Positions 1 to 15,414 of a DNA stretch of 15,414 bases are shown in pieces. This stretch comes from Natrinema soli (lineage in GTDB: Archaea; Halobacteriota; Halobacteria; Halobacteriales; Natrialbaceae): positions 1 to 15,414 of the forward strand of contig NZ_JAQIVI010000054.1 in assembly GCF_028618695.1 (NCBI RefSeq). The letters are read 5' to 3'. Position numbers and translations under genes: made by a program. Under the pieces are notes generated by a model. The model did no database searches. It saw only the letters and a list, made by a program, of their open reading frames with translations, and was not told the origin of the DNA. Position 1 is the stretch's first letter. Each line of letters opens with the position of its first letter.

Positions 1-10
1 TCGAAACCAG

Positions 11-52: not shown

Positions 53-204
53 TGGTCGGTCGCGAGTGATGCAGAGGGAGGGAAGGCGAGCGGGGCGTGC
101 CGTAACCACACACCAGTCGAGGGACAACTACAGCATCTCCACCTTCAGCTCAGCCTGGCGGGCTTCGAAAGGGCGAGGTCGACTCGGTCGTCCCCCGCCG
201 ACGT

Positions 205-683: not shown

Positions 684-821
684 CTGCTTTTGCGGTGACC
701 AAACGTTCTTTCTCTGGTATGGTGGTCGAGCTACAAACTCTTCTGAGTAGTCGCTGAATTCCGTTATCCGGAACTCGCTGGAGATGAAATTGTATTTGGT
801 CTTCGGATCGAAACTTAGCAT
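684..821 (-). pseudogene. Truncated DUF262 (GmrSD-type) gene, N-terminal fragment
   Basis: Starting from the ATG at 821, about 46 residues read as a normal protein. They include the run EEFVARPPYQRKNVWSPQKQ, which matches the N-terminal signature of DUF262 proteins (a PxYQRxxVW core followed by a K/Q helix). In that family this is the start of a ParB/Srx-like nucleotidase or DNase domain, found in GmrSD-type type IV restriction enzymes and other defence proteins. After about residue 46 the similarity stops and the frame runs into low-complexity sequence to a stop near 498. The DGQQR motif and everything downstream are missing. A TATA-like box lies 26 bases upstream of the ATG, so the 5' end looks intact while the body is deleted. 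The family call rests on a short stretch read by eye. Confidence 0.55.
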
Positions 822-842
822 ACGTGACCTGTCTCATTATAC

Positions 843-850
843 TAATAAAT
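843..850 (-). promoter_or_regulatory. TATA box for the truncated DUF262 gene
   Basis: On the minus strand TTTATTAG is centred about 26 bases before the ATG at 821. That is the usual archaeal TATA-to-start distance and would give a leaderless transcript. It is divergent from the promoter of the ATPase operon, with about 240 bases between the two start codons. Confidence 0.45.
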
Positions 851-1033
851 AACTGATAGTTCTGAAATTCGTAGAATGGTGTGGAATTAGCTGTTGAGTG
901 GTTACCAGACCTGTTTTCCCTGTGTTCTTCGGGTCCCCTGATAGCTCGGCGCGGAAAACTGATAGTGTGCTTGGGCAGGGTCTTGTGGGTTCAGCCACCT
1001 ATATTAGTTAATTAGTGGACTTATTGGAATAGC

Positions 1034-1042
1034 TTTATGTTA
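1034..1042 (+). promoter_or_regulatory. TATA box for the small-protein/ATPase operon
   Basis: TTTATGTTA is centred about 27 bases upstream of the ATG at 1065, as expected for a leaderless haloarchaeal transcript starting at that ATG. This supports 1065 rather than the GTG at 1056 as the start of the first gene. Confidence 0.5.
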
Positions 1043-1064
1043 TCCCGGTAGAAGGGTGGTATAT

Positions 1065-1253
1065 ATGTCGGACGAGTCGGGGTCGCTTGAGGAGAGTATC
1101 GTAGACAAATTTTTAGACAATCTGGAGTCGTCCGATGAAATCTCGGAACAAGTGTCAGCTGTTATTTCTGGGGCTTCTGAGGAAGATGATTTCGGAGGTC
1201 GGGACCAAGTCGCGAAACAAGTTCTGGAGGCGGTGAGTGAAGATGAAGATTGA
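1065..1253 (+). CDS. Small acidic protein coupled to the SMC-like ATPase
   Basis: A 62-residue protein if translation starts at the ATG at 1065, preferred because of the TATA box 27 bases upstream; a GTG at 1056 would add three residues. It is very acidic, begins MSDESGSLEES and ends SEDED. It is predicted mostly helical: one helix around residues 5-40 and another around 47-60, separated by a Gly/Asp-rich link. I recognise no known domain. Its last 11 to 17 bases overlap the start of the ATPase gene, and the GGAGG serving that gene lies inside this one, so the two are almost certainly translated together. It may be a partner, chaperone or regulator of the ATPase; that is inference from position only. 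Confidence 0.6.
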   Translation: MSDESGSLEESIVDKFLDNLESSDEISEQVSAVISGASEEDDFGGRDQVAKQVLEAVSEDED

Positions 1254-3708
1254 GGAACTCAAGATCAACAACTTCCGAGGAATCACTGAACTCGAGAAAC
1301 GGCCGGAAGGTAAGAATATTGGGTTAGTTGGGCCGAACGGCTCTGGGAAAAGCTCCGTAATGGATGCCATCGACTTCCTCTTAACCGGAACCGTACAAAG
1401 AATGACCGGCGAGGGCACAAGCGATCTCTCAATCGAGGATCACGGGCCTCACGTTGACAGCGAGCCTGAAGATTCCTGGGTGGAAATCACGTTTGCGGAT
1501 GAGACCGAGCAGATCACACTAAAGCGTACAGTCGAGGACAACTCGCTGGAGTATGATGGCGAAGTCCCAGATTCACTTGAATTGCTTATCGATTCTGCAA
1601 AGAGAGGACAGCATCTGTTGTCCCGAAGTGAGATTCTCAACTTTATTGTAGCGCGGAAACAATCCCGTTCAGAGCAACTCCGTACACTCCTTAAACTAAC
1701 CAGTATCAAGGAAAAGCGTTTAGAGCTCCAAGGTGCCGCGGACCAACTGGATACTGAGGCCGACCGGAAAGAGAGGGAATACAACAGCAACCGACAACGC
1801 CTTTTCACCCTCTTTGAGGAGGAGGCGAAGTCGTTAGAGGAAGTACAGCAGAAGGTCAACGAACTAAGAGAAGAACTGGACGGTGAGCCTTTAGATGAGC
1901 TTCATCCGGATACTGCATTTCGGAACGAGTTGGAGTCACCCACCGAACGGGCAAGTGCCAGCCCTATCCAGTCGAAGCAAACCAAGGAACTCCTAGCTAA
2001 AATATACGAATGGTTCGAAAACGATGCCGAAGAGTTCATAGAACTGGAGGATGATCTAAGGAAGAAAGCTGAGGTAATAAGGTCTGACGAGGAGGCGCTA
2101 CGTGATTTGGATGTTTTAGAGTTAATCCGGGATGGCAGACAGTTCCTTGACGAGGATGCGGACTGTTGTCCGCTCTGCTTAACGAATTGGGATGCAGAAG
2201 AACTCGAAGAACTTCTGGAAGAAAGAGAAGAAAAAGCAGCCAAAGCCAACAAGAAACTGGAGGAGCTTGATAACATTCGACAGAAGCTCCTCCCTCTACT
2301 CACGGAAATCCGGACCGCAGTAAATTCCCTCAGCAACGTCTTAGGACCGCATGATAACTTCGGTACAGACGATCTCGAAGACTTCCTTGCGGATCTAGAA
2401 GAATATGAGAACCAATTGGAAGGCAGTATCGTCGATGAGTTACCTTATGAGGAGTCTACAAGAGAAGAACGGGAACAAGTACTGAGGCCTGAAAGTACTA
2501 TTGAGTACGTTTCCGAACTGAAGAGTCGTGCCGAGGACCTTCCTGATCTCGATGCACTTCAGAATGTATGGGACGTACTAAATTCTGCCTACGAAAACTA
2601 CCAAGATATAGTGCGGCTGGAGACCGTGTCGGAAGAGTACCGGGAGACAGCCGATCAGATGACCGAAGTACAGAAAGAGTTCATCAATGCGCGTGACAGC
2701 GTCCTAAATGAGACTTACGAGGCTATCTCAGAGCAGTTTGAAGAATACTACAAGACGATACATGGAGAAGAGGAAGAGTTCTCACCTGAAATAAGTCCGA
2801 CTGAAACCGGGCTCGACATCCAAGTCGGTTTCCACGGAAGGGGAAAACATCCGCCTCACGCACTCCACAGCGAAGGCCACCAAGACAGCATGGGCCTCTG
2901 CCTCTATTTGGCCCTCTGCGATTACTTGGAAGGCGGAAATCTTCCTCTCATAATGCTTGATGACGTCGTTATGTCTGTAGACGCGGAACATAGACGGCCT
3001 CTCGCAAACCTGCTGGAGAAAGAAATCTCTTCAGACTTCCAGATCTTGATGACCACCCACGACGAACTCTGGTACCGTCACCTGAAAACCGTCGGCGTGC
3101 TTTCCCGGAGTAGCACAATCAAGTTCTCCAGTTGGTCTCTCGATGATGGACCACAGATAATCGGCCGATCTGGCGATGAATGGGACCGTATTGAAGAACT
3201 CATGGACGAGGGTGACGTCCAGGCCGCTGCTTCTCGTCTCAGGCATACAGCAGAGTGGTTCCTCCGCGAAACCTGCCATCAACTGGGTGCGCGTGTAAGG
3301 TTTAAATCGGATTCACGTTGGACATTAGGCGACTTCTCCGATCCCGCCATGTCTCGGTTTAAAGAGCTTCTCAAACAATCGAAACGGGCAGGAAACTCAT
3401 GGGGAAACGATATCTCGGATATTAACGGACTTGACGATAAGCGAAGTGATGTCTACACAGGGTTCCACGATGAGATGGGGGCAGTCAATCCGAACGTACA
3501 CTTCAACGCAGACGAGTGGGCGACCTTCACCATCGCAGAACTCCAACCTGCCGTAGATGCATTCAAAGAACTCTACGATCTGTTCTGGTGCAGCAACTGT
3601 AACTCCTGCCTATCCGTAGTCGAGGAAGGTCACAAAGAAGTCGCACTCAAGTGTTCTTGTGGAGGCAAAGCACATTGGACTTTAGAAGAAAATAGAGATT
3701 CAACGTAG
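1237..3708 (+). CDS. Rad50/SMC-like ABC ATPase with zinc hook and C-terminal HEPN-like domain
   Basis: An 823-residue protein. GTG at 1237 is preferred because GGAGG lies 6 bases upstream; ATG at 1243 would remove two residues. Order of parts: ATPase lobe with Walker A GPNGSGKSS (32-40); coiled coil; CPLC zinc hook (C311, C314) near mid-length; second coiled coil; ABC signature HSEGHQDSMG (544-553); Walker B LIMLDDVVMSVD (571-582) with two Asp; H-loop TTHD (606-609). A C-terminal region (about 645-780) holds RLRHTAEWFL (667-676), whose R-xxx-E-x-F-L spacing resembles the Arg/Glu of PrrC/RloC anticodon nucleases, and NVHFN (753-757), a possible active-site His. A zinc ribbon follows (C785, C788, C791, C806, C808). 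No Mre11-like gene is adjacent. A defence ATPase of RloC-like logic is the best guess; a DndD- or Lamassu-like SMC protein is the alternative. Codon use is AT-richer than in the right-hand operon, suggesting transfer. Confidence 0.92.
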   Translation: MKMKIEELKINNFRGITELEKRPEGKNIGLVGPNGSGKSSVMDAIDFLLTGTVQRMTGEGTSDLSIEDHGPHVDSEPEDSWVEITFADETEQITLKRTVEDNSLEYDGEVPDSLELLIDSAKRGQHLLSRSEILNFIVARKQSRSEQLRTLLKLTSIKEKRLELQGAADQLDTEADRKEREYNSNRQRLFTLFEEEAKSLEEVQQKVNELREELDGEPLDELHPDTAFRNELESPTERASASPIQSKQTKELLAKIYEWFENDAEEFIELEDDLRKKAEVIRSDEEALRDLDVLELIRDGRQFLDEDADCCPLCLTNWDAEELEELLEEREEKAAKANKKLEELDNIRQKLLPLLTEIRTAVNSLSNVLGPHDNFGTDDLEDFLADLEEYENQLEGSIVDELPYEESTREEREQVLRPESTIEYVSELKSRAEDLPDLDALQNVWDVLNSAYENYQDIVRLETVSEEYRETADQMTEVQKEFINARDSVLNETYEAISEQFEEYYKTIHGEEEEFSPEISPTETGLDIQVGFHGRGKHPPHALHSEGHQDSMGLCLYLALCDYLEGGNLPLIMLDDVVMSVDAEHRRPLANLLEKEISSDFQILMTTHDELWYRHLKTVGVLSRSSTIKFSSWSLDDGPQIIGRSGDEWDRIEELMDEGDVQAAASRLRHTAEWFLRETCHQLGARVRFKSDSRWTLGDFSDPAMSRFKELLKQSKRAGNSWGNDISDINGLDDKRSDVYTGFHDEMGAVNPNVHFNADEWATFTIAELQPAVDAFKELYDLFWCSNCNSCLSVVEEGHKEVALKCSCGGKAHWTLEENRDST

Positions 3709-3722
3709 TTAGGCCTTAATAG

Positions 3723-3736
3723 AAAATTCCAATTTT
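3723..3736. terminator. Weak AT-only palindrome after the ATPase gene
   Basis: AAAATT-CC-AATTTT begins 15 bases after the ATPase stop codon and ends in four T. Archaeal termination usually relies on T-runs, so this AT-rich stretch is the most likely end point of the operon, but the run is short. Confidence 0.25.
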
Positions 3737-3756
3737 ATATGTGACAATACAAATAC

Positions 3757-3766
3757 TTTTTATAAA
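3757..3766 (+). promoter_or_regulatory. TATA box upstream of two very short ORFs
   Basis: TTTTTATAAA is a good archaeal TATA element. A transcript would begin near 3785-3790. The first plausible start codon on it is the ATG at 3815, preceded by GGAG at 3807-3810. Confidence 0.4.
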
Positions 3767-3785
3767 CACTGGAGGTATATTTCTC

Positions 3786-3797
3786 TTGGAAATCCAA
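3786..3797. promoter_or_regulatory. Palindrome at the predicted transcription start (operator-like)
   Basis: TTGGA-AA-TCCAA is a perfect 5-bp inverted repeat located about 25 bases after the TATA box, where a bound repressor would block initiation. No regulator gene is seen next to it, so the role is inferred from position alone. Confidence 0.3.
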
Positions 3798-3814
3798 ACG
3801 AAGGATGGAGACCA

Positions 3815-3934
3815 ATGGAAGCGCAGAGAGACCACCACAGAGCCGTTAATACAGTTGACTCTTCGTCAAATTCAGTCTATCGGGAAAAGCGGAAATGGTT
3901 ATTAGTAAGTGAAGGAAAAATAGTCCTCTTGTGA
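3815..3934 (+). CDS. Possible 39-residue protein
   Basis: A short frame behind the TATA box at 3757 and a GGAG at 3807. It begins MEAQRDHHRAV and ends KWLLVSEGKIVLL, with a basic then hydrophobic C-terminus. Its TGA overlaps the ATG of the next ORF by one base, the type of junction used for coupled translation. I recognise no family. It is short enough to be chance; the promoter, GGAG and coupling are the only support. It could also be the remnant of a longer gene in this decayed region. Confidence 0.3.
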   Translation: MEAQRDHHRAVNTVDSSSNSVYREKRKWLLVSEGKIVLL

Positions 3935-4068
3935 TGACTGAAACACCTCCACTAAACGGTGAAGAAGAACCGTTTACTCAATCTTCTTTCGAACTTACGG
4001 AGGAACCGATCGGGAGGTATACTACACTGAAGGGTGTCATAGAACGGTTCGCGTACCAGTTGCGTTGA
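3934..4068 (+). CDS. Possible 44-residue acidic protein or gene remnant
   Basis: Begins MTETPPLNGEEEPF and ends GVIERFAYQLR. The acidic first half followed by a regular-looking helix is typical of haloarchaeal proteins, so I judge it more likely coding than its length suggests. It starts at an ATG overlapping the stop of the preceding short ORF. After its TGA the same frame stays open through the 18-bp tandem repeat to about 4223, so it may be the N-terminus of a larger gene broken by a stop codon. No family is recognised. Confidence 0.35.
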   Translation: MTETPPLNGEEEPFTQSSFELTEEPIGRYTTLKGVIERFAYQLR

Positions 4069-4080
4069 CCCCGACGAGTG

Positions 4081-4116
4081 TTACGTACAGTCAATGCATT
4101 ACGTACAGTCAATGCA
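4081..4116 (+). repeat. 18-bp tandem direct duplication
   Basis: TTACGTACAGTCAATGCA occurs twice with no gap (4081-4098 and 4099-4116) and no mismatch. The unit contains GTAC and TGCA palindromes. An exact duplication of a multiple of three bases suggests a recent slippage or target-duplication event. It lies 12 bases after the stop of the 44-residue ORF. Confidence 0.85.
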
Positions 4117-4117
4117 C

Positions 4118-4243
4118 TTAGTGATTGTCAGTACCATTTCTCCCTTTATGCTGAACGATTTCACCGTCAATTGTGGCCGACACGCGCTGTATGTTTAACA
4201 CGGCTCTGTCAACATCACCGATAGCTGATGGAAGCACCAGCGA
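4118..4243 (-). pseudogene. Possible C-terminal gene remnant
   Basis: On the minus strand 41 codons without a start codon of good context read as plausible protein (containing AIGDVDRAVLNIQRVSATID and ending GTDNH) before a TAA at 4118. Immediately upstream, in the same frame, is a TGA. The residue pattern is more natural than that of the plus-strand frame through the same DNA. No family is recognised, and chance cannot be excluded for so short a stretch. The surrounding 4069-4335 holds nothing else I can support. Confidence 0.2.
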
Positions 4244-4335
4244 TCAATAAGCCCACCTACATACCAGCTGATTCACTGGAGTATGGAGTGAAACCAATCT
4301 TTGAGAAGAACCTCTGACACCCTGCACTGGGGGAA

Positions 4336-4383
4336 AGCCCGGCAGCACAGCGAACTCGAAGAGAGCGAGCGAGCAGCCCGGAA
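4336..4383 (+). repeat. Dispersed direct repeat, copy 2
   Basis: Same two arms as the copy at 11-52 (AGCCCGGCAGCACAGCGA and GAGCGAGCAGCCCGGAA), in the same orientation, with a spacer 6 bases longer. Together the copies enclose the truncated DUF262 gene, the ATPase pair and the debris after it. To its right the plus strand again becomes pyrimidine-rich, as it does after copy 1. Confidence 0.6.
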
Positions 4384-4511
4384 CCTGGAGGAAGGCGGGT
4401 GATCGTGGGAGGGCGGTGCTGTTCGAGGCGGTCCGCCCGTCGTCCCTCCCTCCAGACTCACCTACCTCACTCACCACTCTCATCCATTCCTCCTCAAATC
4501 GCACCGATCCC

Positions 4512-5099
4512 CTACCTTCTGTACGGCTTCCGGATCCAGGACTTCATCGAACTGCCCCATGCTCGCAGCTGTACTCGGATCGCTCGCCGCAGATCCTGCC
4601 GTAGCACCGCCACTTCCGTATAGTACGATCGCGCACTCCTCGGTAATTCATGGAACCGTTCCTGACACTTGAGACACGTGTACTCGAACTCTGCCCGGAC
4701 GTTGTTCTGGTGCCCCTCGAGCGTGCCCTCCTCGTTATAGTGGAACTCCTCATACACGAGCTTCTTCGAGACGAATTTCCGACCATCACACCGCGGGCAC
4801 TGGTTCATCATCAGCGGCTCGTCCGATCCCTGCCTCGAGACAGTACCCGATCTCATCGATGCTGCCCTGGCCGGTTCACCCTCACTATCCTCGGCTGAAC
4901 TCTCGGCTTCGTCCACTGTGGTATCAGCTTGGTCTGCCTCCGATTCGTCTTCCTCGCCTGGCGCTGCTCCTTCTCGAACCCAGTCGTCGAATTCCTCGCT
5001 CAGGATCTGGTCGTCGTCCTCTGCCTCTTCCGTCTGGTGTTGATCTGTCCAGCTCATATCCCGACTCACCCCTCTCAGGTGGGCGAACAACACTGCCAT
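4512..5099 (-). CDS. Acidic zinc-ribbon protein of unknown function
   Basis: 195 residues from the ATG at 5099. The ATG at 5057 (giving 181 residues, starting MSWTDQHQTEEAEDDD) is at least as likely, because the first 14 residues are not acidic and a GGGGTGAG lies just upstream of 5057. Residues 15-90 are an Asp/Glu-rich, probably disordered region. Residues 100-146 form a four-Cys zinc ribbon (C101/C104 and C142/C145, as CPRC and CLKC) with a 37-residue finger. The C-terminus (150-195) is basic, with many Arg. The acid-ribbon-basic layout suggests binding of nucleic acid or of the transcription machinery, but no family is recognised. It is co-oriented with the primase/transfer operon but separated from it by about 1.2 kb, a T-run and its own upstream promoter. 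Confidence 0.65.
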   Translation of the reverse strand: MAVLFAHLRGVSRDMSWTDQHQTEEAEDDDQILSEEFDDWVREGAAPGEEDESEADQADTTVDEAESSAEDSEGEPARAASMRSGTVSRQGSDEPLMMNQCPRCDGRKFVSKKLVYEEFHYNEEGTLEGHQNNVRAEFEYTCLKCQERFHELPRSARSYYTEVAVLRQDLRRAIRVQLRAWGSSMKSWIRKPYRR

Positions 5100-5119
5100 C
5101 GCGATCGCCTAGCCTGACG

Positions 5120-5720
5120 TCCTCCTAGCTGCTCTTCACTCACCACCCTCCTCGAGTACCACCTCACCGTCGACGTCCTCGCCCACGGCCACATTCCTCC
5201 TCTCGAGGAGAGCAACCCACCCTCCGTCACCACCCCTTCCAGGTCCGCTCTATCCTTATCCTCGAGTGCTCTTCCAAACTCCCGTCACGGCCTGGCTCCT
5301 AACCTATACGTTCCTCCCACTCTCACCCCTCCTCAGCTTCATCTCCAGTCCCTTGATCCAGTCCTCTACCCCACCCCTCTCCACTCCGACCACACTCTAC
5401 CCTGTTCTCCGTCCTTCACTCCATTCTCCAGACCTCCCTCTCTTTTCTCCCTCTCGCCTCGAGCACCATCCTCTCTCTACTTCTCCCACCCCTCTTCTTT
5501 CTCTATTGGTCCCTCACATTCGGCTTTCTTCTCAACTTTCTCTCACATCTATTACCTCGTCTCACACCCCGTCCCCTCCCACCTCTCTACCGCTCTCCAC
5601 TCTCCCACTGATCGTGTTCTAAAAATGCTTCTCACTCCTCTCTCATTCCCCTTCCGACCACCTCCTTGTACTGCCTCACACTCCACCCGTCCCCACACTC
5701 AACTCAATCCCTCCATTCTC
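5120..5720. other. Long pyrimidine-rich (purine-rich on minus strand) tract, no gene
   Basis: By hand count 5281-5700 contains 91 purines in 420 bases, so about 78% of the plus strand is C or T, rising to about 82% in 5401-5580. Open frames on the plus strand translate to Pro/Leu/Ser/Thr strings forced by this composition and have no recognisable domain. The minus strand has no sizeable frame between 5100 and 5700. If transcription starts at the TATA box near 5897, the tract would be a purine-rich leader of the zinc-ribbon gene. Such DNA can form triplexes or R-loops; a function is not shown. Confidence 0.7.
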
Positions 5721-5748
5721 GAGTCCGCACACTCCTCCAGACCGTACC

Positions 5749-5865
5749 TCAAGTTTCTGATGGATACACCTTCCCTTGCCCTCTGAACTCTCCATGTCTC
5801 ACTACCCGTCGCACACACCTCTGTTTCTGCACAAACCCCCATTCCTTTGGACGAAAAATCGTCAT
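5749..5865 (-). CDS. Possible 38-residue basic protein behind a TATA box
   Basis: The ATG at 5865 lies about 30 bases downstream of the minus-strand TATA box at 5893-5901, close to leaderless spacing. The product starts MTIFRPKEWGFVQKQ and is Arg/Lys-rich, unlike typical acidic haloarchaeal proteins, and matches no family I know. Its coding status is doubtful; it may simply be the first frame on a leader RNA. Confidence 0.2.
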   Translation of the reverse strand: MTIFRPKEWGFVQKQRCVRRVVRHGEFRGQGKVYPSET

Positions 5866-5892
5866 TCACGGCCGGTCTTACGGCCTTACGTC

Positions 5893-5901
5893 TATTTAAA
5901 A
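5893..5901 (-). promoter_or_regulatory. TATA box abutting a repeat copy, minus strand
   Basis: On the minus strand TTTTAAATA directly follows TGCGCGACGGGG (repeat copy 1, 5902-5913), so the repeat occupies the position where TFB contacts DNA upstream of the TATA box. Transcription would begin near 5870 and run through the purine-rich tract towards the zinc-ribbon gene. Confidence 0.4.
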
Positions 5902-6132
5902 CCCCGTCGCGCATATCTAAGGTCGTTATTGTGTGCGCGACGAGTTCGGGTTTCGGAGCTGAAATCAAGAACGTGCGCGACGGAAGGGTGAAACCGCCGA
6001 TATTGGGATGATCGGTGTGTTATGTTTAATGAAAGTAATAATCAGACAGTCAATTTTGGAGAAGAGTTCCGTACGTAAAACCCGTCAATTAGGGTTTTCA
6101 GCAGTTTCAGCCCTCAGATCGTGCGCGACGGG
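5902..6132. repeat. Four copies of TGCGCGACGG (iteron- or operator-like)
   Basis: Copies: minus strand 5902-5913 (TGCGCGACGGGG), plus strand 5934-5942 (TGCGCGACG), 5974-5983 (TGCGCGACGG) and 6122-6132 (TGCGCGACGGG). The second and third copies start exactly 40 bases apart, about four helical turns, so they face the same side of the DNA. The copies lie between two converging gene sets, beside the primase genes and an AT-rich stretch. Origin iterons or operators for a shared regulator are both possible. Confidence 0.6.
6077..6098. repeat. Inverted repeat in the putative origin region
   Basis: AAAACCC (6077-6083) and GGGTTTT (6092-6098) form a perfect 7-bp inverted repeat with an 8-base centre. 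It lies between the third and fourth copies of the TGCGCGACGG repeat. A second, near-perfect palindrome, TTTCGGAGCTGAAA, lies at 5951-5964. Confidence 0.5.
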
Positions 6133-6244
6133 ATGTGTCCATCTTATATGTGATTAGAATTAATATATATCATGTTACCCATATATGTCGGGGCAGTGGC
6201 ACAGAATCCTGATTTTAAATCCGTCATATGATGGTGGAATAATA

Positions 6245-6265
6245 CCCATGTAGATGGGGGTTTTT
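6245..6265 (+). terminator. Hairpin plus T-run, plus strand
   Basis: CCCAT-GTAG-ATGGG followed by GG and five T, an intrinsic-terminator-like arrangement. It falls at the end of a possible 22-codon ORF (6185-6253) that starts about 20 bases after the AATATATAT stretch. A short plus-strand transcript from about 6185 to 6265 is therefore possible. Confidence 0.35.
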
Positions 6266-6269
6266 CTTC

Positions 6270-6275
6270 AAAAAA
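6270..6275 (-). terminator. T6 run at the end of the primase operon
   Basis: On the minus strand six T occur 8 bases after the TAG stop of the PriL-like gene, followed shortly by a second A/T-rich stretch. Oligo-T runs are the usual termination signal in archaea. Together with the hairpin at 6245-6265 it separates the operon from the repeat region. Confidence 0.45.
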
Positions 6276-6283
6276 TGTTTGCT

Positions 6284-7831
6284 CTAAGAGTGTGAGAAAA
6301 AGTCGTCAGTCTGCTCGAGTTGGTCGTACATGTCGTCGGGGAATGGGAGGCTGCCATAGATTGAGTAGGGACACTGCTCTTTGCCGATACAGTACCGTTG
6401 CATATCGTCATTATTACAATTCATCGGCAGGGGCGTGTCCCCTTCGGGGCCAATGCCACGATCGCCCCGTCGGGCTTCGTACTTGATCTGGTAGGCAGAG
6501 ATCTCTGGATCAAACCATGGCCACCGGCTGAACAGATCTTTGAGTTCATCAGTGATCGCGTCAATGGGTTTCTCGCGGTACTGCGGAAGCCACATTACCA
6601 TCCGAACAAGGTTGAAGAGGTCTTTTCGAACTGGTTTCTCCTCTTGGAGCCGCTCGTCAAGTGCTGCCAGACAAGGCAGTTCAAACAGGTCTTCGAGTTC
6701 CGTAATCTCGAGTGGGCGTGATCCACCACCCGAGTGGCCAATCCGATACGTGTTGACGCGATCACTCCGATCGATCGTCACCGCCCGGTGCGACTCAGAA
6801 TTAACAAGCGTTTTGGCGACGCTACGGTGGTTGGACAGTTGCCCCAACTGAGCTTTCTCACCCTCGTTCTCTGGGTCGTATGCCTCGAGCGCGTCGGACA
6901 ACTCCTGAGCAGTATGAAACTCGCCGATCTGAGTCTGGGGTGACGCTCGCACCGCATTTTGGAGCAGTCGGACGATCTGCTCGCCCCGGTCCCAATTTTT
7001 CCACACCTTCTCGTACTGACCGATCTCGAGGGCGTAGTCAGTCCGCTCGGTGATCGCCGTCTCATGCTCTCGAAGCCACTTGCGTTGTGGTTCACCGAGT
7101 TCCTGGTCTTGGACTGCCTGTAACCGGCCAAAACACCGCTTTGCGTACGATCGATAGGTGTCATGGAGGTGGTCGAGCGGAACGTAGAGATGGTTGTTCT
7201 TGACCTGCGTTCGAATCTCGCCCGTCTCATCGCTACTTGCCGCTTCGGTGGATGCTCGCGCGAGACACTTTCGAGAGGCAGCCGCCATTGGGATTTCTAC
7301 GTAGAGACCGGACTCATTTTCGGCAGTCTCCTCCTCGTCGAATTCGGGCACCGGTTTGACGCCCGTACAAACGCGACCCGGGTGGGGACCATCCTGACTG
7401 GGGCCTTTCGCGTAGAGGACCTCAGCAATATCCTGATACAGAGTCGGATCGTCGTACTCATGCACAAGTGCGAGGAGATTGGTCGCGAACAGCTTGCGGA
7501 TGTTATGAAGGACTTGATTCTGCCGAGACGGCGTGTCTTCGAAGCGAGGTTGTTCGCTCACGCAAACTGTACTGAGAGTAGCCAGCAAAACGAGCGTGGC
7601 GGGCTCGTCGACGAACGGGTACTCGAGCGGGCGGTTACGCTGGGAGCTCTTGAACACAGCAGTCCCGAACCGTTCGATATCCGAAAGCAGCGTCTCTCGG
7701 TCTGGCGTATTCTCGACGACATAGCGGTCGTACCCGCGGGTGAACAGTCGAACGATCTCGTTATCGGTGTAGTTGGTTGGGATCGCTGCAGCGAGGTAGG
7801 CGTCTCGGTCAGTCTCTCGTGGGTCAATCAT
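6284..7831 (-). CDS. priL: Primase large-subunit (PriL)-like protein with Fe-S domain
   Basis: 515 residues from the ATG at 7831, chosen because it overlaps the PriS-like gene by 8 bases, the coupling seen throughout this operon; an in-frame ATG at 7918 would add 29 basic residues lying wholly inside the upstream gene. The C-terminal domain (about 380-500) carries the PriL pattern: LPC (C387), then a helical stretch with FNLVRMVMWL, then MNC (C472), YC (C481) and QCP (C487), four Cys placed as the ligands of the PriL 4Fe-4S cluster. In that family this domain helps bind template and initiating nucleotide and is needed for primer initiation. A segment around 295-366 (LSNHRSVAKTL, then YRI) looks like a winged helix. 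The protein is longer than typical archaeal PriL (roughly 350-400), and its N-terminal 280 residues are helical without a recognised domain. It is probably the partner of the adjacent PriS-like protein. Confidence 0.85.
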   Translation of the reverse strand: MIDPRETDRDAYLAAAIPTNYTDNEIVRLFTRGYDRYVVENTPDRETLLSDIERFGTAVFKSSQRNRPLEYPFVDEPATLVLLATLSTVCVSEQPRFEDTPSRQNQVLHNIRKLFATNLLALVHEYDDPTLYQDIAEVLYAKGPSQDGPHPGRVCTGVKPVPEFDEEETAENESGLYVEIPMAAASRKCLARASTEAASSDETGEIRTQVKNNHLYVPLDHLHDTYRSYAKRCFGRLQAVQDQELGEPQRKWLREHETAITERTDYALEIGQYEKVWKNWDRGEQIVRLLQNAVRASPQTQIGEFHTAQELSDALEAYDPENEGEKAQLGQLSNHRSVAKTLVNSESHRAVTIDRSDRVNTYRIGHSGGGSRPLEITELEDLFELPCLAALDERLQEEKPVRKDLFNLVRMVMWLPQYREKPIDAITDELKDLFSRWPWFDPEISAYQIKYEARRGDRGIGPEGDTPLPMNCNNDDMQRYCIGKEQCPYSIYGSLPFPDDMYDQLEQTDDFFSHS

Positions 7832-8750
7832 GTGTGAGTTCACTCTCGGTTTCAAGGAACTGTGGTCGGGCTTCCGTTTGCGGATCGAACGCTGGGCTCT
7901 CGATCGGCTGGACGACACGGCAGACGTCTGCGTGCAACGAGTAGGGCACTCGAAGGAGACGACTCCGGTCAGCGGTCACAACGGGATCGATCGGAATCTC
8001 GAAGCGCTCGAGCAAGAGGTCGTTCAGCACTTCTCGGCTTTTCTCATCGTACCCGTATTCAAGATCGTCGTCGAGAAGGTAGACGTGGACGCCTTGACCG
8101 GAATAGACGACCATCGTCTCCTCGGCAACAAACACATCCATGAAGATATCGCGCGTTTTGAAGCCGTACTCGATTGCACGGTTGATGTCCTCGAATGAGT
8201 AGGGATACCCCGTTGGATCGGCGTCACGAATCTCGGACTCGGCGAGCAACGCATCGTCACGACTCGTATCTGTTGATTGGATCACGAGGTCAGTCTCATC
8301 AAGTTCGCGTTCAGCGCGTGCTGTCGCGATGTCTTTCGCATCGATATCAACCGCAAGAACCCACGGTCGGTCCCAGTTGTCTAACCCGTAGTAGACGCCA
8401 TCCGAAATCGGATCACTCTTCTCGAGCAAATCGGGATCAGCCAACGCGTACTCACTTCCCTGGAACGGGTCGTACCGTGCGGGAGATTGGATGAACGAGA
8501 CGAGTTCCTCGAAATCGCTGAAGTTCTGTGCAATCGGCTCGCCACCAGAATCGGTACGCCACGTCGGCCGTCGAATGAAGTCGCGATCGGGGCGCTCCGC
8601 TTTGCGGATGGGATGGCGTTCGCGGAAGCTGATTCCGAACTCTTTCGGTGCCGTTGGTGTGATGAACGGCGGCAACTGGTCTACGTACTTGGGGAACTCC
8701 TCGGTGTAGAACGCATAGACCTCGTCGCGAGTTGCCTGTCGCCAACTCAT
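7824..8750 (-). CDS. priS: Archaeo-eukaryotic primase catalytic subunit (PriS-like)
   Basis: 308 residues. All three catalytic motifs of the archaeo-eukaryotic primase superfamily are present: VDID (D135, D137, metal-binding), SGQGVHVY (217-224, with the essential His222) and IDPVVTADRSRLLRVPYSLH (254-273), which supplies the third acidic residue and the RLxRxPxSLH signature of PriS. The enzyme would synthesise RNA or DNA primers on single-stranded DNA. The protein has a single Cys (C277), so the zinc-binding insertion usual in chromosomal PriS is absent. The start codon overlaps the upstream ATPase stop as ATGA, with GGAGG 6 bases before it. It is divergent from chromosomal PriS, so it is an element-specific copy rather than the host's own gene. 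Confidence 0.92.
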   Translation of the reverse strand: MSWRQATRDEVYAFYTEEFPKYVDQLPPFITPTAPKEFGISFRERHPIRKAERPDRDFIRRPTWRTDSGGEPIAQNFSDFEELVSFIQSPARYDPFQGSEYALADPDLLEKSDPISDGVYYGLDNWDRPWVLAVDIDAKDIATARAERELDETDLVIQSTDTSRDDALLAESEIRDADPTGYPYSFEDINRAIEYGFKTRDIFMDVFVAEETMVVYSGQGVHVYLLDDDLEYGYDEKSREVLNDLLLERFEIPIDPVVTADRSRLLRVPYSLHADVCRVVQPIESPAFDPQTEARPQFLETESELTHD

Positions 8751-11700
8751 GAGGAGCCTCCTGTCACCTTTTCGTCCAGTTTTCGAAGAGTTTGAACCGT
8801 TGTCATCCCATCAGATTCAAACGACTCGACTCGCTCCTGGATCTGTGCAAGTGAGCGCCCATCCCGCCCACTCACGGTGCCGGGAAGCCGTCCTGCATCG
8901 GCAAGCATCTTCACAGTTCCTCGACCATCATCACGGGACGGAAACACCCACACTGCATCCGCGTCGACAGCAGCCATCTTGTCATAATCACTCACCACTG
9001 CCTCTGCGTTGTTTGAGGCCATCTCAACCTCTCCAACCCATACGAGTTCGTCATCAGCATCGACTGCCGCGACATCGAAAATCGTTTCAGGAGTGTGCTG
9101 ATAATATCGGTAGACCTGTTCAACTACCTCGAACTCGGTGAGCCAGTCCCAGAGGAGTTCTACCCCGACTTTGTGCGGTGTCTTTTCACCGAGATCACCG
9201 ACGCCTTCCTCAGCAGTCAGTGTCTCGTCTAAGAGCTCTCGTCCAGCTGGAAGAACCGTATAGTATGTGTGACGGTTCACCGTCTCCTTCTCGAGGAGCC
9301 CCTGTTCAAGGAGAACCTGCGTATCAAGTCCGTCAAGGTCCTCTTGCAACTCACCCATTCCCTCCAAGAGCGTATACCCCGGACGGTCACGGTTCATCGC
9401 GTCGAGGACGCGTTTGAGGAAGATCGCATCGTCTTGCGAGAGCCCCCGCCGCCGGAGTTCATCGTCCGAGACTGGGCACTCCTCTTCGTCCGTGGCCGGA
9501 TCGAAGAAGGCGGCTCCATTTGCAACGCCAACCGGATCATCATCGGTGGTCTCCGCGTCACTGCTGTCGTGACCGATCTCGCTTACGTCTGTGTCAGCTG
9601 TGAGATCGCGATCGTCTCGATCATCGTGCTGATCGTCGGCCCCATCGTCAAGGCTAGTCTTCTCGAGCGGCTGCTGGCCGTCTGCGTCCTCACTCTTTTC
9701 GTCGAACTCTACCATCTTTTCACTCTCGTCCTCATCCAACGCCGGCGACGCGCCAGCCCGCCGATCTGTGTCGCTCCAATTCGACCACTCCATCGCGTCC
9801 TCGTGGGACGGTACGTACAACCCGTACTCCTCCTCAGTCCGCTCGAGTACTTCCGGCAGAAGCTCTTCGTCGAACTGTTGCTGTTCGGCCGCCGTCAACG
9901 GCTCGTCGCTTTCTGGGTGCCCGCTTATGATCGGGGGCGAGTGCAAGGTCAACGGCGCTGGCCGATCCTCACCGAATCCAGGGGAGACGAGTTTCGTGAA
10001 CCACTCGCCCGCTGCCATCCGGTTGTTCCGGTTCCGGACATCCTCCACAGACAACTCGTCGTGCGTGAACGTCTTCGCGAACCGATCCTTCATCGAGATA
10101 TCACCAATCAGTTTCGTATGCACCTCCGTCAGCAGTTCCTCGTATGCACCGGTCCCATTGTGGTACTTCTTGACCTGCTCGGGGTACTGCATGATGAACC
10201 CGAGACTCAGTCCCGACGATCGTCCCTGGGGGAGCAGTTGATCGGCGACCAGTTCAGTCGCGACGAACGGTGCAGCCTCTTCCATGATGACGTTGACCAC
10301 GTTCTCAGGGTTCGTCCGCCGCCGTCGTTGGATCGAGTGCCACAGATCACTCAGCATGACTGTGGTGAACCCACGCTGGGCGTCGAGCGTGAGATCGCCG
10401 AGGTCGAACAGAATCGTGACATCTTCATCGAGGAACTCACTGAAGTCGAAGTGGGTCTCCTGCTGGTGGAAGCCGTAGAGATCGTCTCCGGTGGATTCGG
10501 CTTCGCGACCGGGTTTGTGTCGAAGCATCCAGTGAAGGTGGCGATCCTCTTTCAGTTTGTTCAGCCGGTTCATCACCGCTCCCATCGTCGTGTCGAACTG
10601 GTTTTCGTCCTTGGCAAACTGCGCGGCGAGTGAATCGTGGATGTCGGCATTGATCTCCGAAACCTCCGGCAGCTCCTGATGATGGTGCATTCGCGTCGCG
10701 GCCTCGACAAGATCATCCAACCCGAAGACGTCGTCACCGTGTTTCGGATCGAACAACGCTTGGATCAGGAACGTCAGAATTTCGTTCGCCACGAACGCCT
10801 GCTCGTACTTCTCCGCTCCCATGATCATCCGCATCAGCTCATGGAAGTGATCGACTTTCTCCTTGACTGCCGTCTCCCGATCGTTCCCCTCGAGCGCTGA
10901 TCGAATATCGAAGAACGAGATGGCTGGCAGTGTTCCTGGCTCCCGGAAGTAGTACACGTCGTCGAGATTCCCGAATCTCTTGTAGTGGGCCATCAGGTAG
11001 TTCTTACACATGTTGTCACCTTTCGGGTCGAAGAGGACGTTCGGCCCTGGTGTCGTCTCGGCGAGCGAGCGCAACATGTGATACGTAACTTGGCTTTTCC
11101 CGCTCCCAGTCGCGCCACAGAGCAACCAGTGGCGCGACTGACGGTTTGGTGGTAACCGAAGCGGGCCCTCGACAGCACTGTTGGCGTCCTGACCGAGGAC
11201 CATCCCCGTGGTATACTGACGGCGTTGGGCGGTGTCCAACCCAGGAAGGGTCGTGCGGCTTTCGGGATTCGCATGGGTCTCTTTGACCGCCTCGTCGGTG
11301 AGATGCTCGGTACTGGGGACGATGACCATGTTGCAGAGTTCGGCGGGATCGAGATGGAGGTCGGGTTCGGAGCGGCTCACCCGCCCACCAGCGACGACCT
11401 CACCCTCGAGAAACCGATTGAAACAGCGTCGTGAGCGCTTGCGCCGACTGCGCTCAAGTACTCCTTTCTCGTGGAGGGTTTCGCTCTCGAGTTTATAGTA
11501 GTCACCAGCAAGCGGATCGAACACGGTACTCAGGTTCCGGAGGTCGTGTTCGATTTCGGATGTATCGCTCAGAGACAAGTTCGTAGGGACAGTCACCGCC
11601 CGCAGGTTGGTCGTGAACGTATGTCCCCAGTCTTCGTTTTTGATCTCGTCGATGCGCTCAGATCGAGATTCACTGAGTGACTCTGACCGCGATGAGGACG

Positions 11701-13315
11701 ACTCACTATTCTTTGGACCGCGTAGAAGCTCTTCAAGGGCTATGGCGGCTTCACCCCACAGCGTCTCGCGTCCCTGTTCGATTTCGTCGATGTGGTATTC
11801 ACCCTCTTTCGTCAGATCGGGCTCGCCTTCGAACGCGGCCTGGAAGACGATCGGGTGATCCGTGCTTGCAAAATGATCGATCAGCACGGTCAGCGGCGCG
11901 TGTGAGCTCGCCTTCGACCGATCGTCCTCACCCATCTGCCCATCGAACTTCTTGATCGCCGCCATTGGATCTCCACTGCCGGTCCACCGCAACCCATACG
12001 GTTCAACTTCATCCGGATGTGGCCGAGCGAGTACTCCCTCACCGGTATCGACTGGCGTCTCGAGGGAGAACGTGAGCGACCCTGGATCGCGGTTTTCTGC
12101 GTTCTCTTTCGCACGGAGTGCATCAAGGTCAACACTCGGGAGTTGCGTGCCGAGTGGGAGATTGGAATCGGACTCCTCCGTACTGGTGCTCTCGTCGGCA
12201 GTGTCCTCTGTAGTGATCCGCTCACCCATGGCCGTTGCTCCTCCGTCAGCAACGGTCGGGTTGGAACCCTGGACACGAACGAGCGCCTCGACTTCAGCCA
12301 GTGTACACTGGAGTGTCCCGTTCTCGAGAGCGGTCTCGAACTCGTCGTAGGAGTACTGCTGTGGAGTGATGAGCTTCTCCGCAAAGTCAACAGTCACACG
12401 TTCGATTTCCACGGAGTCGGGGTAGGCCGAGTTGAGCCGATCGTAGAGCGTGGACAGGTGTTGCTCGCAGGTGTAGTAGAATTCGATCGGAGAGTCCGTC
12501 CCGTCGCTGTAGATTACAAACTCGAACGTGAGCGGATCGGGATCCGAAAGCGGGTTGAGCTGTTGCCACCACGACAGTCCACCTCGTCGGACGTCGTGCA
12601 AGGGACGGATCTGGTTGATGACTTCCCGTGGCGCTCGTTCGCCCGTCGATGGAACGACTCGGATGTACTCTTGTTTACGCTCAAGTGGCGAGGCAGCGGA
12701 GGCTTCGAGTTCGAGAACGGTCTCGTGAAGCTCTGTTGGGTCCTCGATCGCCCAGCACTGGATTTCGGGCGACGTGTGGTCGAACGTACTGAACGTGACG
12801 GTGCCATACGACAACAGCTGGCCGATGGGGGACTGCTGAAAAGTAGTGTCGACGACACGGTCGAGCGGGAGTTTCGTGAATCCATCGCCACGAATTCCCC
12901 GCGTGCGGACGTAGAGTTTCTCCGACGTGAGGACGTACGTCGTGCGAAGCGCCCGAACAATCGGACGCACACCGATCGCGACGCCTACCAGGCCAATCAG
13001 AATGGGGACAGCACTCAGCCACCAGAGTGGAATCTCGGCAGTGATGAGTGCTGTCTCGAGCGTGTAGGGCTCGAGTCCGACGAGCGACGGTCCTGTTGTA
13101 ACCCCGGCGATGCTTTCGGTCGCAAGAGCGAGCGCGACCGCCACGAAGCCGAGTGCGACCAAATACGTCCGAAATCCGCCTCGAAACAGTGGTGTGCCGG
13201 TCCACTGCACGTCCAGGTCGGAGACCTGCTTCACTTGCTCGTCCTCTGCAACGATCCACTCGAGCGACTCAGCGTCGCTGTTGGGGGTACTCTCGGTTTT
13301 CTCAGTCGTCTGCAT
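8747..13315 (-). CDS. VirD4/TraD/HerA-like ATPase with N-terminal PH domain and C-terminal nuclease-like domain
   Basis: 1522 residues. Two membrane helices (about 50-68 and 98-118) are followed by a bacterial-type PH domain (bPH2/DUF304 pattern, about 120-205, with VLTSEKLYVRTRG and a GTVTF strand). Residues 210-720 are a long region of unknown fold. The ATPase core has Walker A GATGSGKSQ (734-742), FDPKGDN (762-768), Walker B-like VNVIMEEA (1007-1014, Glu-Glu instead of Asp-Glu) and a sensor FIMQYPEQ (1040-1047), as in coupling proteins and HerA/FtsK relatives. An acidic linker (about 1195-1262), a winged-helix-like segment (1285-1365) and a possible restriction-endonuclease-like fold (1385-1480; FDVAAVD, then VGEVEM) end the protein. 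It probably feeds DNA to a membrane transfer channel. GGAGGTGA lies 9 bases before the ATG, which overlaps the upstream gene by 14 bases. Confidence 0.9.
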   Translation of the reverse strand: MQTTEKTESTPNSDAESLEWIVAEDEQVKQVSDLDVQWTGTPLFRGGFRTYLVALGFVAVALALATESIAGVTTGPSLVGLEPYTLETALITAEIPLWWLSAVPILIGLVGVAIGVRPIVRALRTTYVLTSEKLYVRTRGIRGDGFTKLPLDRVVDTTFQQSPIGQLLSYGTVTFSTFDHTSPEIQCWAIEDPTELHETVLELEASAASPLERKQEYIRVVPSTGERAPREVINQIRPLHDVRRGGLSWWQQLNPLSDPDPLTFEFVIYSDGTDSPIEFYYTCEQHLSTLYDRLNSAYPDSVEIERVTVDFAEKLITPQQYSYDEFETALENGTLQCTLAEVEALVRVQGSNPTVADGGATAMGERITTEDTADESTSTEESDSNLPLGTQLPSVDLDALRAKENAENRDPGSLTFSLETPVDTGEGVLARPHPDEVEPYGLRWTGSGDPMAAIKKFDGQMGEDDRSKASSHAPLTVLIDHFASTDHPIVFQAAFEGEPDLTKEGEYHIDEIEQGRETLWGEAAIALEELLRGPKNSESSSSRSESLSESRSERIDEIKNEDWGHTFTTNLRAVTVPTNLSLSDTSEIEHDLRNLSTVFDPLAGDYYKLESETLHEKGVLERSRRKRSRRCFNRFLEGEVVAGGRVSRSEPDLHLDPAELCNMVIVPSTEHLTDEAVKETHANPESRTTLPGLDTAQRRQYTTGMVLGQDANSAVEGPLRLPPNRQSRHWLLCGATGSGKSQVTYHMLRSLAETTPGPNVLFDPKGDNMCKNYLMAHYKRFGNLDDVYYFREPGTLPAISFFDIRSALEGNDRETAVKEKVDHFHELMRMIMGAEKYEQAFVANEILTFLIQALFDPKHGDDVFGLDDLVEAATRMHHHQELPEVSEINADIHDSLAAQFAKDENQFDTTMGAVMNRLNKLKEDRHLHWMLRHKPGREAESTGDDLYGFHQQETHFDFSEFLDEDVTILFDLGDLTLDAQRGFTTVMLSDLWHSIQRRRRTNPENVVNVIMEEAAPFVATELVADQLLPQGRSSGLSLGFIMQYPEQVKKYHNGTGAYEELLTEVHTKLIGDISMKDRFAKTFTHDELSVEDVRNRNNRMAAGEWFTKLVSPGFGEDRPAPLTLHSPPIISGHPESDEPLTAAEQQQFDEELLPEVLERTEEEYGLYVPSHEDAMEWSNWSDTDRRAGASPALDEDESEKMVEFDEKSEDADGQQPLEKTSLDDGADDQHDDRDDRDLTADTDVSEIGHDSSDAETTDDDPVGVANGAAFFDPATDEEECPVSDDELRRRGLSQDDAIFLKRVLDAMNRDRPGYTLLEGMGELQEDLDGLDTQVLLEQGLLEKETVNRHTYYTVLPAGRELLDETLTAEEGVGDLGEKTPHKVGVELLWDWLTEFEVVEQVYRYYQHTPETIFDVAAVDADDELVWVGEVEMASNNAEAVVSDYDKMAAVDADAVWVFPSRDDGRGTVKMLADAGRLPGTVSGRDGRSLAQIQERVESFESDGMTTVQTLRKLDEKVTGGSS

Positions 13316-15414
13316 CGGTTGTCACCTCCGTGCTCGAAGAAGCGTCACCACTCGCGGTCTCCGGTTCACACATCGTGCTGGCAGCATCAGCCCACTCATC
13401 AAGCAGCGTGAGCGGGATCGACGTCTCCTCTGAAAGAGACTTAATATCTGCCACAGCGAGCTCGCCAACCGTCTCGACACCTGCGTCGGCGAGATATCCT
13501 GCGTACGTCTCGCCGACTCCAGTGATCGTGGAGAGATCGTCACCTCGATCTTCTGCCGCTTCAGCACGCGAATCCTCCGCTCCCTTCTCATGCGGTTCCT
13601 CCGCTCCCTCATCTGCAGCTGCTGTCGCTCCTTGACTGGCCTCAACAGTCTCACTAACGTCTCTTTCGTGATATTCGGTCTCCACATCGGCTCGCTCCCG
13701 ATCGGCGTGCTCGACGACCGCCTCATCGGTCTCGAGCTCAGGCTCCTTGTCGATCTCATCCAGATCCACCTCCTCGAGCACCGACTCCGGAATCTCGTAC
13801 TCATCGAGTCGGCTCTCTGCAGCAAGGAATCCGGCGTCGTCGGCGTCGATATACCGGTTCTCGGCGAGATACTCCCACGGATCGAGGTCATCGTCGAGGA
13901 CGCTGACTTCGTAGTCGTTCACGTGGAGTGCGAGTGGTTTCGACCACTCATTGACTTCGAGCAGAAACTCCGAGTAGCCCCCGTCTTCGCCAGTCTGGGC
14001 CGTCGTCAGGAACGTTTGCTCCGAGGGGGTGAGGTCGTGGAAGTCGATCATCTCGTTGCTGACCGACTCGTGGTGGAAGATTTGCCTGATATCACAAAGA
14101 TTGTACACGTTGCGCGCTTTCTCGGCGGCCTCCTTGGTCTGGTCGTCCGATTGGGCGACGAACTCATCGACAGTCTGGGAGATGAGTGTGATTGCTGTGT
14201 TGAAGTGGCGACTGTGCCGGATGAACAGATCGATCATGTCTGTCGTCGCTGCCCGCCGCAACAGGTAGTGCGCCTCGTCGATCGTCACCTGGGTCCGGCG
14301 GTCGTGATCGCTGGCCGCTCGCTGGTAGATCCAGTCGAACATCACGTGCATGAACAGTGGTGCCTGCCCCGTGTCAGAGAACATCGACATGTCAATGACG
14401 ACCAGACGATTGTCGAGTTCAACGTTCGTCCGGCCGGTCAGATTGTCGTTCTCGCCGCCTTTCTGGAACGCCTCGAGACCAAGCAACAATTGGTAAGCGT
14501 ACTGCTCGTCGCCATCCCGAAACCGCGTCTCGAGCTGGTCAATCTCGGGCCAGACCCGCTCGTCGTTCGCATCCTCGTGCAGTTCCAGGAAGTCCGATGG
14601 TAGGCCACCGTCTGCGATTTCTGAGAGGATATCAAGGAGGTCCTTGATCGTCGGGCTCGTGTTCTCGTGGGTCGCCGTCTCTTCTGTGATGCCGTACTGG
14701 AGGTAGGCGAGTCGGACCGCTCGCCGCAGGATCCCCTCCTGCTCCTTGCTCAACGACTGCTCGGCCACCGCCGAGAAATGGATGCGAAACAGCTCCATCA
14801 CCGAGCGCAATTTCTTCTTAAACGGATCGTCCACAGTGTCGTCGATACCGCGCTGGATCTCAAGCGGATTGACTGTGTTGTCGCCGCCGAAGCGGATCAC
14901 TTGCCCACCAAGATCGTTCGCGAAGTCGACGAAGTCTGCAAGCGGATCGAGAACCAACATCTCGATTTCGGGATCCATCATCAACCGATGGTACATCTCG
15001 TGTTTCTCAGCAAACGTCTTTCCGGAGCCCATTGTGCCCGCAATCGCTTTCGAGTACGAGGAGAGCTCGTATCTGTCGAGGATAACAGGCGTGTTCGTTG
15101 CGTCAAACCCATAGAAGATTCCCTCGGGATCGGTGATCACCGGCTCGATGAACGGAAACATCGTGCCGATGGCGGTTTCCTGCATCAACTGGGTCGACTT
15201 GATCGGATCGTCACCGAGCGGGCCGAGTGCGTCCTGTGATTCGACCTGGCGCTTCTCGAGGGGGACTGCTTCCGCGTTCGCGGTACTGAGCGAATCGACG
15301 ACGCGTTCGGTTGCTTCGTTGAGTTCCTGTTCGGTGTCGGCGACCACCTCGATGTAGATCGCGAAGTCGAACAGTTTCGTCTCCCCGAGGATGATATCCC
15401 AGATCAACTCCTGG
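13302..15414 (-). CDS. VirB4/TraC-type conjugation ATPase, 5' end outside the window
   Basis: The frame is open to the window edge, so the true start lies beyond 15414; the codons near 15407 are internal. The visible ~703 residues begin in the part of VirB4 just before the ATPase. Residue numbers here count from the TTG at 15407. Walker A is GTMGSGKT (124-131), followed by LVLDPLADF (151-159). Walker B is QVTIDEAHYLL (373-383), followed by SRHFNTAITLISQ (399-411), the usual VirB4/TraG sensor region. The C-terminus is unusual: an acidic linker (about 540-622) and then a helix-hairpin-helix domain (about 624-676; TITGVGETYAGYLADAGVET). VirB4 proteins power the transfer channel of type IV secretion systems at the inner face of the membrane. 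It is the first visible gene of a four-gene overlapping operon. Confidence 0.92.
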   Translation of the reverse strand, partial: QELIWDIILGETKLFDFAIYIEVVADTEQELNEATERVVDSLSTANAEAVPLEKRQVESQDALGPLGDDPIKSTQLMQETAIGTMFPFIEPVITDPEGIFYGFDATNTPVILDRYELSSYSKAIAGTMGSGKTFAEKHEMYHRLMMDPEIEMLVLDPLADFVDFANDLGGQVIRFGGDNTVNPLEIQRGIDDTVDDPFKKKLRSVMELFRIHFSAVAEQSLSKEQEGILRRAVRLAYLQYGITEETATHENTSPTIKDLLDILSEIADGGLPSDFLELHEDANDERVWPEIDQLETRFRDGDEQYAYQLLLGLEAFQKGGENDNLTGRTNVELDNRLVVIDMSMFSDTGQAPLFMHVMFDWIYQRAASDHDRRTQVTIDEAHYLLRRAATTDMIDLFIRHSRHFNTAITLISQTVDEFVAQSDDQTKEAAEKARNVYNLCDIRQIFHHESVSNEMIDFHDLTPSEQTFLTTAQTGEDGGYSEFLLEVNEWSKPLALHVNDYEVSVLDDDLDPWEYLAENRYIDADDAGFLAAESRLDEYEIPESVLEEVDLDEIDKEPELETDEAVVEHADRERADVETEYHERDVSETVEASQGATAAADEGAEEPHEKGAEDSRAEAAEDRGDDLSTITGVGETYAGYLADAGVETVGELAVADIKSLSEETSIPLTLLDEWADAASTMCEPETASGDASSSTEVTTDADD

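Follow-up and report, generated by a model that had tools for sequence, protein, structure and literature searches.

PriS/PriL-like primase genes inherited with a VirD4-type coupling ATPase in a candidate relaxase-less transfer system of haloarchaeal plasmids

Gene organization of the operon

The window, that is, the whole stretch of DNA analyzed here, comprises 15,414 nucleotides of Natrinema soli (assembly GCF_028618695.1, contig NZ_JAQIVI010000054.1, positions 1 to 15,414), and its minus strand carries VirB4-, VirD4-, PriS- and PriL-like genes with consecutive overlaps of 14, 4 and 8 bases. This gene set and its overlaps had been read from the open reading frames alone in a preliminary description of the DNA, and they are borne out by the domain and profile matches and by the coordinates:

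13302..15414, minus strand: VirB4-like ATPase, C-terminal part, the gene running past the window edge (NF045971, VirB4_plasma, DUF87, TraG P-loop)
13302..13315, minus strand: VirB4/VirD4 overlap of 14 bases, with GGAGGTGA ribosome site
8747..13315, minus strand: VirD4/TraD-like coupling ATPase, 1522 amino acids (aa) (TrwB_AAD_bind, DUF87)
8747..8750, minus strand: VirD4/PriS overlap of 4 bases (ATGA)
7824..8750, minus strand: PriS-like catalytic primase subunit, 308 aa (TIGR00335, PDB PriS matches)
7824..7831, minus strand: PriS/PriL overlap of 8 bases
6284..7831, minus strand: PriL-like "primase-associated protein", 515 aa from the ATG at 7831 (NF038197)

VirB4 is cut short by the window, and therefore the operon extends rightwards. 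Ribosome sites of the GGAGG type precede VirD4 and PriS, and none was found ahead of PriL in the window operon. Within the wider family, the 4-base VirD4/PriS overlap occurs in 38 of 49 measurable loci, and the PriS/PriL overlap is of 4 bases in 39 and of 8 bases in 7 of 54 measurable loci. At the DNA level, the window is closest to large Natrinema and Haloterrigena plasmids of the plasmid collection, including five records that cover at least 80% of window positions 6000-15414 at 89.8-93.4% identity.

The VirB4 of the window matches NF045971 (E-value, E, 7.8e-55, below the curated cut-off) and VirB4_plasma (E 2.2e-45), as well as DUF87 and the TraG P-loop domain; in close relatives, the complete gene has about 884-923 codons. 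A helix-hairpin-helix match lies at the C-terminus of the window VirB4 (residues 625-662, E 1.7e-5, just below the cut-off). VirD4 matches TrwB_AAD_bind (E 8.4e-7) and DUF87, both above the cut-off; DUF87 is present in all 19 VirD4 family members scanned.

Conserved linkage of primase and transfer genes

A sample of 194 genomes of the haloarchaeal class was searched with profiles of the PriS-like protein and of the VirD4 C-terminus. The 48 full-length PriS-like matches, found in 42 of these genomes, all directly follow a VirD4 C-terminal domain in the same orientation, and in the reverse direction PriS is present at 47 of 47 strong matches to the VirD4 C-terminus; no full-length PriS-like gene apart from VirD4 was found in this sample. 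A second set of 59 loci in genome contigs, found through the PriL-like gene and hence conditioned on it, has PriS just upstream of PriL in 56 (only a piece in L049), VirD4 in 49 of the 52 and VirB4 in 45 of the 50 loci with enough upstream DNA. The exceptions to the linkage (L049, L050, L057, L059) are decayed copies or fragments, and VirB4 was not found in the locus L013. By tblastn, 78 plasmid records contain the PriS-like and 86 the PriL-like gene, the genera among the matches listed being haloarchaeal. Across 196 genomes sampled from the whole phylum, all matches of at least 300 bits fall in genomes that are also in the class sample, with weaker matches only elsewhere.

The whole VirB4-VirD4-PriS-PriL arrangement is far beyond chance, and gene order shows the linkage to be fixed within a family of haloarchaeal plasmids. 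The conservation of primase/ATPase linkage among haloarchaea, which the preliminary description had proposed to check, was thus confirmed, and the phylogenetically random insertion that it had named as contrary evidence is not what the genomes contain. An origin by chance or as a decayed insertion is ruled out by the linkage counts together with the invariant primase motifs described below. Three further loci (L137-L139) hold fragments or no cassette. The Halobacterium plasmid pNRC100 has a PriL-like gene beside an ISH8-type element (L061:19986-21509), apparently a remnant, with neither PriS nor VirD4 in the region examined.

VirB4 can diverge strongly between loci in which VirD4, PriS and PriL have remained together. 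The window and L067 are 83% identical in VirB4, 58% in PriS, 48% in PriL and 37-38% in VirD4; the window and L008/L056 are 25-26% identical in VirB4, 73% in PriS, 67-68% in PriL and 63-64% in VirD4. Across 49 complete loci there are 662 pairs in which PriS is at least 70% identical, and VirB4 falls below 40% in 35 of these non-independent pairs and VirD4 in none. Pairwise-distance correlations, likewise not independent observations and weak evidence by themselves, are 0.975 for VirD4-PriS, 0.961 for VirD4-PriL and 0.976 for PriS-PriL, and 0.922, 0.902 and 0.883 for VirB4 with VirD4, PriS and PriL, respectively. These comparisons suggest that the VirB4 side has been exchanged more than once, no exchange being seen between VirD4 and the primase. 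By this measure of divergence, the partner to which the primase is tied is VirD4, the coupling protein, and not VirB4.

PriS-like and PriL-like proteins

The PriS-like protein matches TIGR00335 (E 2.6e-9, below the cut-off) and PriS structures in the PDB. The positions of the motifs DxDxK, SGQGxH and VTAD..R..P.SLH are invariant in 35 of 35 aligned rows (tested at D135, D137, S217, H222, D261, R267 and H273), and at the level of these residues the primase motifs are intact. A glutamine stands where Pyrococcus PriS carries an arginine (SGRGYH) and is a signature of the family. A recent paralogue of the host primase was considered and rejected: besides family members and fragments, the profile gives matches of only about 20-28 bits in the 194 genomes, mostly covering the last motif of longer frames that presumably encode chromosomal PriS. 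A Cys/His cluster kept by the PriS of L131, a divergent locus described below, is missing from the PriS of the window.

The PriL-like protein is a member of NF038197 (748.2 bits, cut-off 100). It matches no Pfam family at E of 1 or less, PF04104 included, and for this reason the filing of the pair as ordinary PriS/PriL was rejected. A likeness to PriL was found in its C-terminal region:

6371..6691, minus strand: homology to the iron-sulphur C-terminal domain of PriL, residues 381-487, with C387, C472, C481 and C487 (HHalign)

HHalign of this region against 29 chromosomal-type PriL sequences, retained from 48 extracted frames by length and cysteine count, gave a probability of 94.9% (E 4.2e-8), with E 0.025 for the best of 20 column-shuffled controls and E 0.55 for one reversed control; an earlier comparison with a shallow alignment had given just 4%. 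The match takes in three of the four cysteines, and all four are among the 14 positions invariant in 38 of 38 diverse rows. The first 375 or so residues have no profile match, the AlphaFold2 model is poor (pLDDT, the predicted local distance difference test score, 47.5), and solved structures searched with the PriL-like profile gave no relevant match. The name PriL-like given in the preliminary description therefore holds for the C-terminal ~105 residues only, the rest being without demonstrable likeness to PriL, and the sequence evidence points to a divergent PriL iron-sulphur domain, with homology that is divergent only.

VirD4 and its predicted nuclease tail

Three further domains were found or predicted in VirD4:

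12719..12946, minus strand: N-terminal bPH_2 domain (residues 124-199), shared by 6 of the 19 scanned family members
9221..9469, minus strand: predicted winged-helix domain at the C-terminus
8750..9217, minus strand: predicted PD-(D/E)XK-like nuclease domain at the C-terminal end, with conserved E, D and ExE

The C-terminal tail has no Pfam match in the scanned family members. VirD4 is predicted to end in the winged helix followed by the PD-(D/E)XK-like nuclease domain, the latter modeled with an alpha-beta-beta-beta-alpha-beta core. In the C-terminal 262-aa piece, E117, D154, E169 and E171 are invariant (29 rows), and the fold matches of the tail are NucS/EndoMS, AF1548, YaeQ, Can2 and the BspD6I nickase, with weak to middling scores. 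The same predicted nuclease tail is found in solitary VirD4-like proteins of about 1160-1450 aa (L069-L080); none of the 12 sampled has VirB4 or a primase in its vicinity. The one solitary protein scanned with PADLOC, that of L069, has weak matches to the mad8 and HerA defence models.

Channel genes upstream of VirB4

In relatives, the same-direction gene run goes on upstream of VirB4, i.e., beyond the right edge of the window, and two operon types can be distinguished. Type 1 (L062 and L066 were analyzed, and L064 shares the annotated layout) encodes a five-helix protein, which in L066 is TrbL/VirB6-like (TrbL_3, PF19590, E 1.1e-138) and has an 81% identical counterpart in L062, and also a 137-139-aa protein with about three hydrophobic stretches. 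Type 2, to which the window belongs (L060, L067), encodes a 111-112-aa protein that in L067 matches the TrbC/VirB2 pilin family PF04956 (E 5.3e-5, below the cut-off), a polytopic protein of 493-520 aa, a membrane protein of 96-128 aa and a Cdc48/PAN-like AAA+ ATPase with predicted membrane helices (L067:9739-11124). Other mating-channel genes, for which the preliminary description had proposed to look to the right of position 15414, were thus found in relatives, the VirB6-like and the pilin-like gene each coming from a different operon type and both from outside the window. Typing by PLSDB is MPF_T for seven of nine retrieved plasmid regions.

Relaxase search, plasmid context and neighboring genes

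The search for a relaxase, also proposed in the preliminary description, returned none that is intact. The relaxase family PF03432 was found in none of eight plasmids, other relaxase families not being searched individually, and the archaeal Rep-Arvir family (PF25227), which passages of PMC13107129 place on some integrative and conjugative elements, was found in one of the eight as a partial piece with a stop. MOB-suite typing in PLSDB gives all 86 PriL-bearing records as non-mobilizable. Since no relaxase was recognized in these sequences, the system is not classed here as bacterial-type conjugation.

Orc1/Cdc6 initiators are present in all eight plasmids examined; their distance from the primase is about 14.5 kb in one plasmid and at least about 39 kb in the remaining seven. 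Each of 25 genomes sampled from the class has a canonical PriL (PF04104). Therefore, replication alone fits the linkage less well. Some copies of the cluster lie on multi-megabase contigs (G109:C1, G006:C1) rather than on plasmids.

Downstream of the operon, the window encodes a 195-aa zinc-ribbon-like protein with paired CxxC motifs (4512-5099, minus strand); 12 of 64 compared loci keep this gene downstream of the primase, all of them near the clade of the window. An 823-aa SMC/RecF-type ATPase (1237-3708, plus strand) has a strong PADLOC match to LmuB of Lamassu (E 8.3e-33) and no tblastn relative in the 64 loci, and it is therefore probably cargo, perhaps a defence gene. Positions 5001-6000, downstream of the operon, are strongly asymmetric between the strands (GC skew -0.49). 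A comparison of the operon with PHROGs yielded nothing of use.

Proposed role and alternatives

Here, VirD4-PriS-PriL is proposed, at a probability of roughly 0.55, to be a cassette for DNA processing in a haloarchaeal type IV system without a relaxase, which would transport DNA as single strands and prime synthesis of the second strand. In this mechanism VirD4 would pump the DNA, its predicted winged-helix and PD-(D/E)XK-like tail would bind and probably cut or resect the substrate, and one strand would thereby pass into the channel formed by VirB4, the VirB6-like protein and the pilin. In the recipient, the PriS/PriL-like primase would then provide the primer for the complementary strand; it might do the same for the replacement strand in the donor. 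A nuclease-tailed pump beside a primase is what single-strand transfer without a relaxase would need, namely to make or select a strand, to pump it and to prime its complement. A more specific form is put forward tentatively and is the more doubtful of the two: that in relaxase-less conjugation of haloarchaeal plasmids VirD4 with its PD-(D/E)XK domain both makes and pumps the single strand, and that the PriS/PriL-like pair inherited with it rebuilds the second strand in the recipient. The earlier idea of a transfer operon with its own primase is partly supported, by the linkage and by the channel genes of relatives, and it is refined in that the tie is to VirD4, no intact relaxase was found and VirD4 has a predicted nuclease.

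Against the recurrence of tight junctions, the 11 loci closest to the window have a gap of 55-307 bases from the end of VirD4 to PriS, so the 4-base overlap of the window is absent from its nearest kin. Two of the weaker matches of the phylum-wide sample, both in one genome, are divergent PriS/PriL-like pairs outside the main family (L131:8125-10456 and L132:6831-8611), the first with no VirD4/VirB4 profile match within the ~19 kb examined and the second with a short PriS frame and a HerA-like ATPase lying some 4 kb away from PriS; both pairs count against an exclusive transfer role. Having no clear VirD4/VirB4 neighbors, they are also what would be expected if the primase served vegetative plasmid replication and merely shared the transfer operon, as could be argued from PolpTN2 and the PrimPol-helicase of other archaeal elements, primases that passages of PMC3973330 and PMC6563490 describe as replication proteins. 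This is, however, rather unlikely, given the separate Orc1/Cdc6 initiators of the eight plasmids, the canonical PriL of the 25 genomes and the absence of a full-length PriS-like gene away from VirD4 in the 194. Because the initiators sit away from the primase in all eight plasmids, the evidence leans towards a role in transfer.

The primase could also make incoming single strands duplex for repair or recombination, not plasmid spread, if the system served DNA import or exchange, as crenarchaeal Ced/Ted do, or cell-fusion mating. Archaeal VirB4-type systems can be importers, most likely of single strands, and a separate HerA-NurA pair has been proposed as the strand source for Ced/Ted (passages of PMC9905601), and the copies on multi-megabase contigs would suit such a role; with the cluster on the 78 plasmid records found by the PriS-like search, and with the Ced models failing at 18.0 bits for CedD (cut-off 600) and 11.6 bits for CedB (cut-off 700), it appears quite improbable. 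Least probable among the readings considered is that a HerA/VirD4-type pump and a nuclease here make up a system for defence or DNA processing instead of transfer. The weak PADLOC matches of the window VirD4 (mad8, E 6.5e-11; HerA, E 2.5e-6) and the existence of solitary VirD4-nuclease relatives would agree with it, whereas VirB4, VirB6-like and pilin-like genes in the same gene run of relatives and the MPF_T typing speak against it.

Comparison with known systems

The model name of NF038197 (prim_adj_arch, "primase-associated protein"), with a neighbor annotated as "DNA primase", suggests that the adjacency to a primase had already been noticed. In the literature searched, NF038197 was found neither described as having a PriL iron-sulphur domain nor linked to a VirD4/VirB4 operon or to transfer. 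Text searches likewise found no description of a VirB4-VirD4-PriS-PriL operon in titles, abstract openings or selected passages, long result lists being checked in part and most subscription papers lying outside the coverage.

Sog of ColIb (ColIb-P9) and TraC of RP4 are primases of bacterial conjugative plasmids, and bacterial conjugative primases have a different primase fold. The likeness to these and to the primase domains of MOBQ relaxases is that a dedicated primase is encoded with transfer functions; the window protein differs in being an archaeo-eukaryotic PriS with a PriL-like partner and is not a member of their group. A MOBQ primase domain is needed for transfer, according to passages of PMC12857230.

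Among archaea, Sulfolobus plasmids, Thermococcus pT33-3 and thaumarchaeal integrative and conjugative elements share the VirB4/VirD4 ATPases and have no recognizable relaxase, and the thaumarchaeal elements have VirB6 homologues (passages of PMC6563490 and PMC12857230); the lack of a recognized relaxase is stated for archaeal conjugative plasmids in passages of PMC12857230 and PMC9905601. The primase of the thaumarchaeal elements differs, as it is a PrimPol-helicase fusion to which a function in replication is ascribed, and the passages on these three groups make no mention of a separate PriS/PriL-like pair coupled to VirD4. PolpTN2 of the Thermococcus plasmid pTN2 is similar in its plasmid-encoded combination of PriS-like and PriL-like parts with four iron-sulphur cysteines, and its primase activity has been demonstrated (passages of PMC3973330); it is, however, one fused polypeptide thought to be replicative, whereas the window has two genes, known from sequence, in a transfer operon. 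For Haloferax volcanii, a "possible DNA secretion system" with VirB4/VirD4 homologues in a 53-kb region has been described, and the link to a primase is not drawn in the relevant passages (PMC2841640).

Views on the strandedness of archaeal conjugation differ, double-stranded DNA being suggested in passages of PMC6563490 and single-stranded DNA argued for in passages of PMC9905601. That dozens of haloarchaeal plasmids carry a primase locked to their coupling protein argues for the transfer of single strands. If the more specific form of the proposal holds, these plasmids would process DNA for conjugation in a way of their own, and archaeal conjugation would move single strands. The primase would also mark a second origin, of eukaryote type, for primases linked to transfer, parallel to the bacterial ones.

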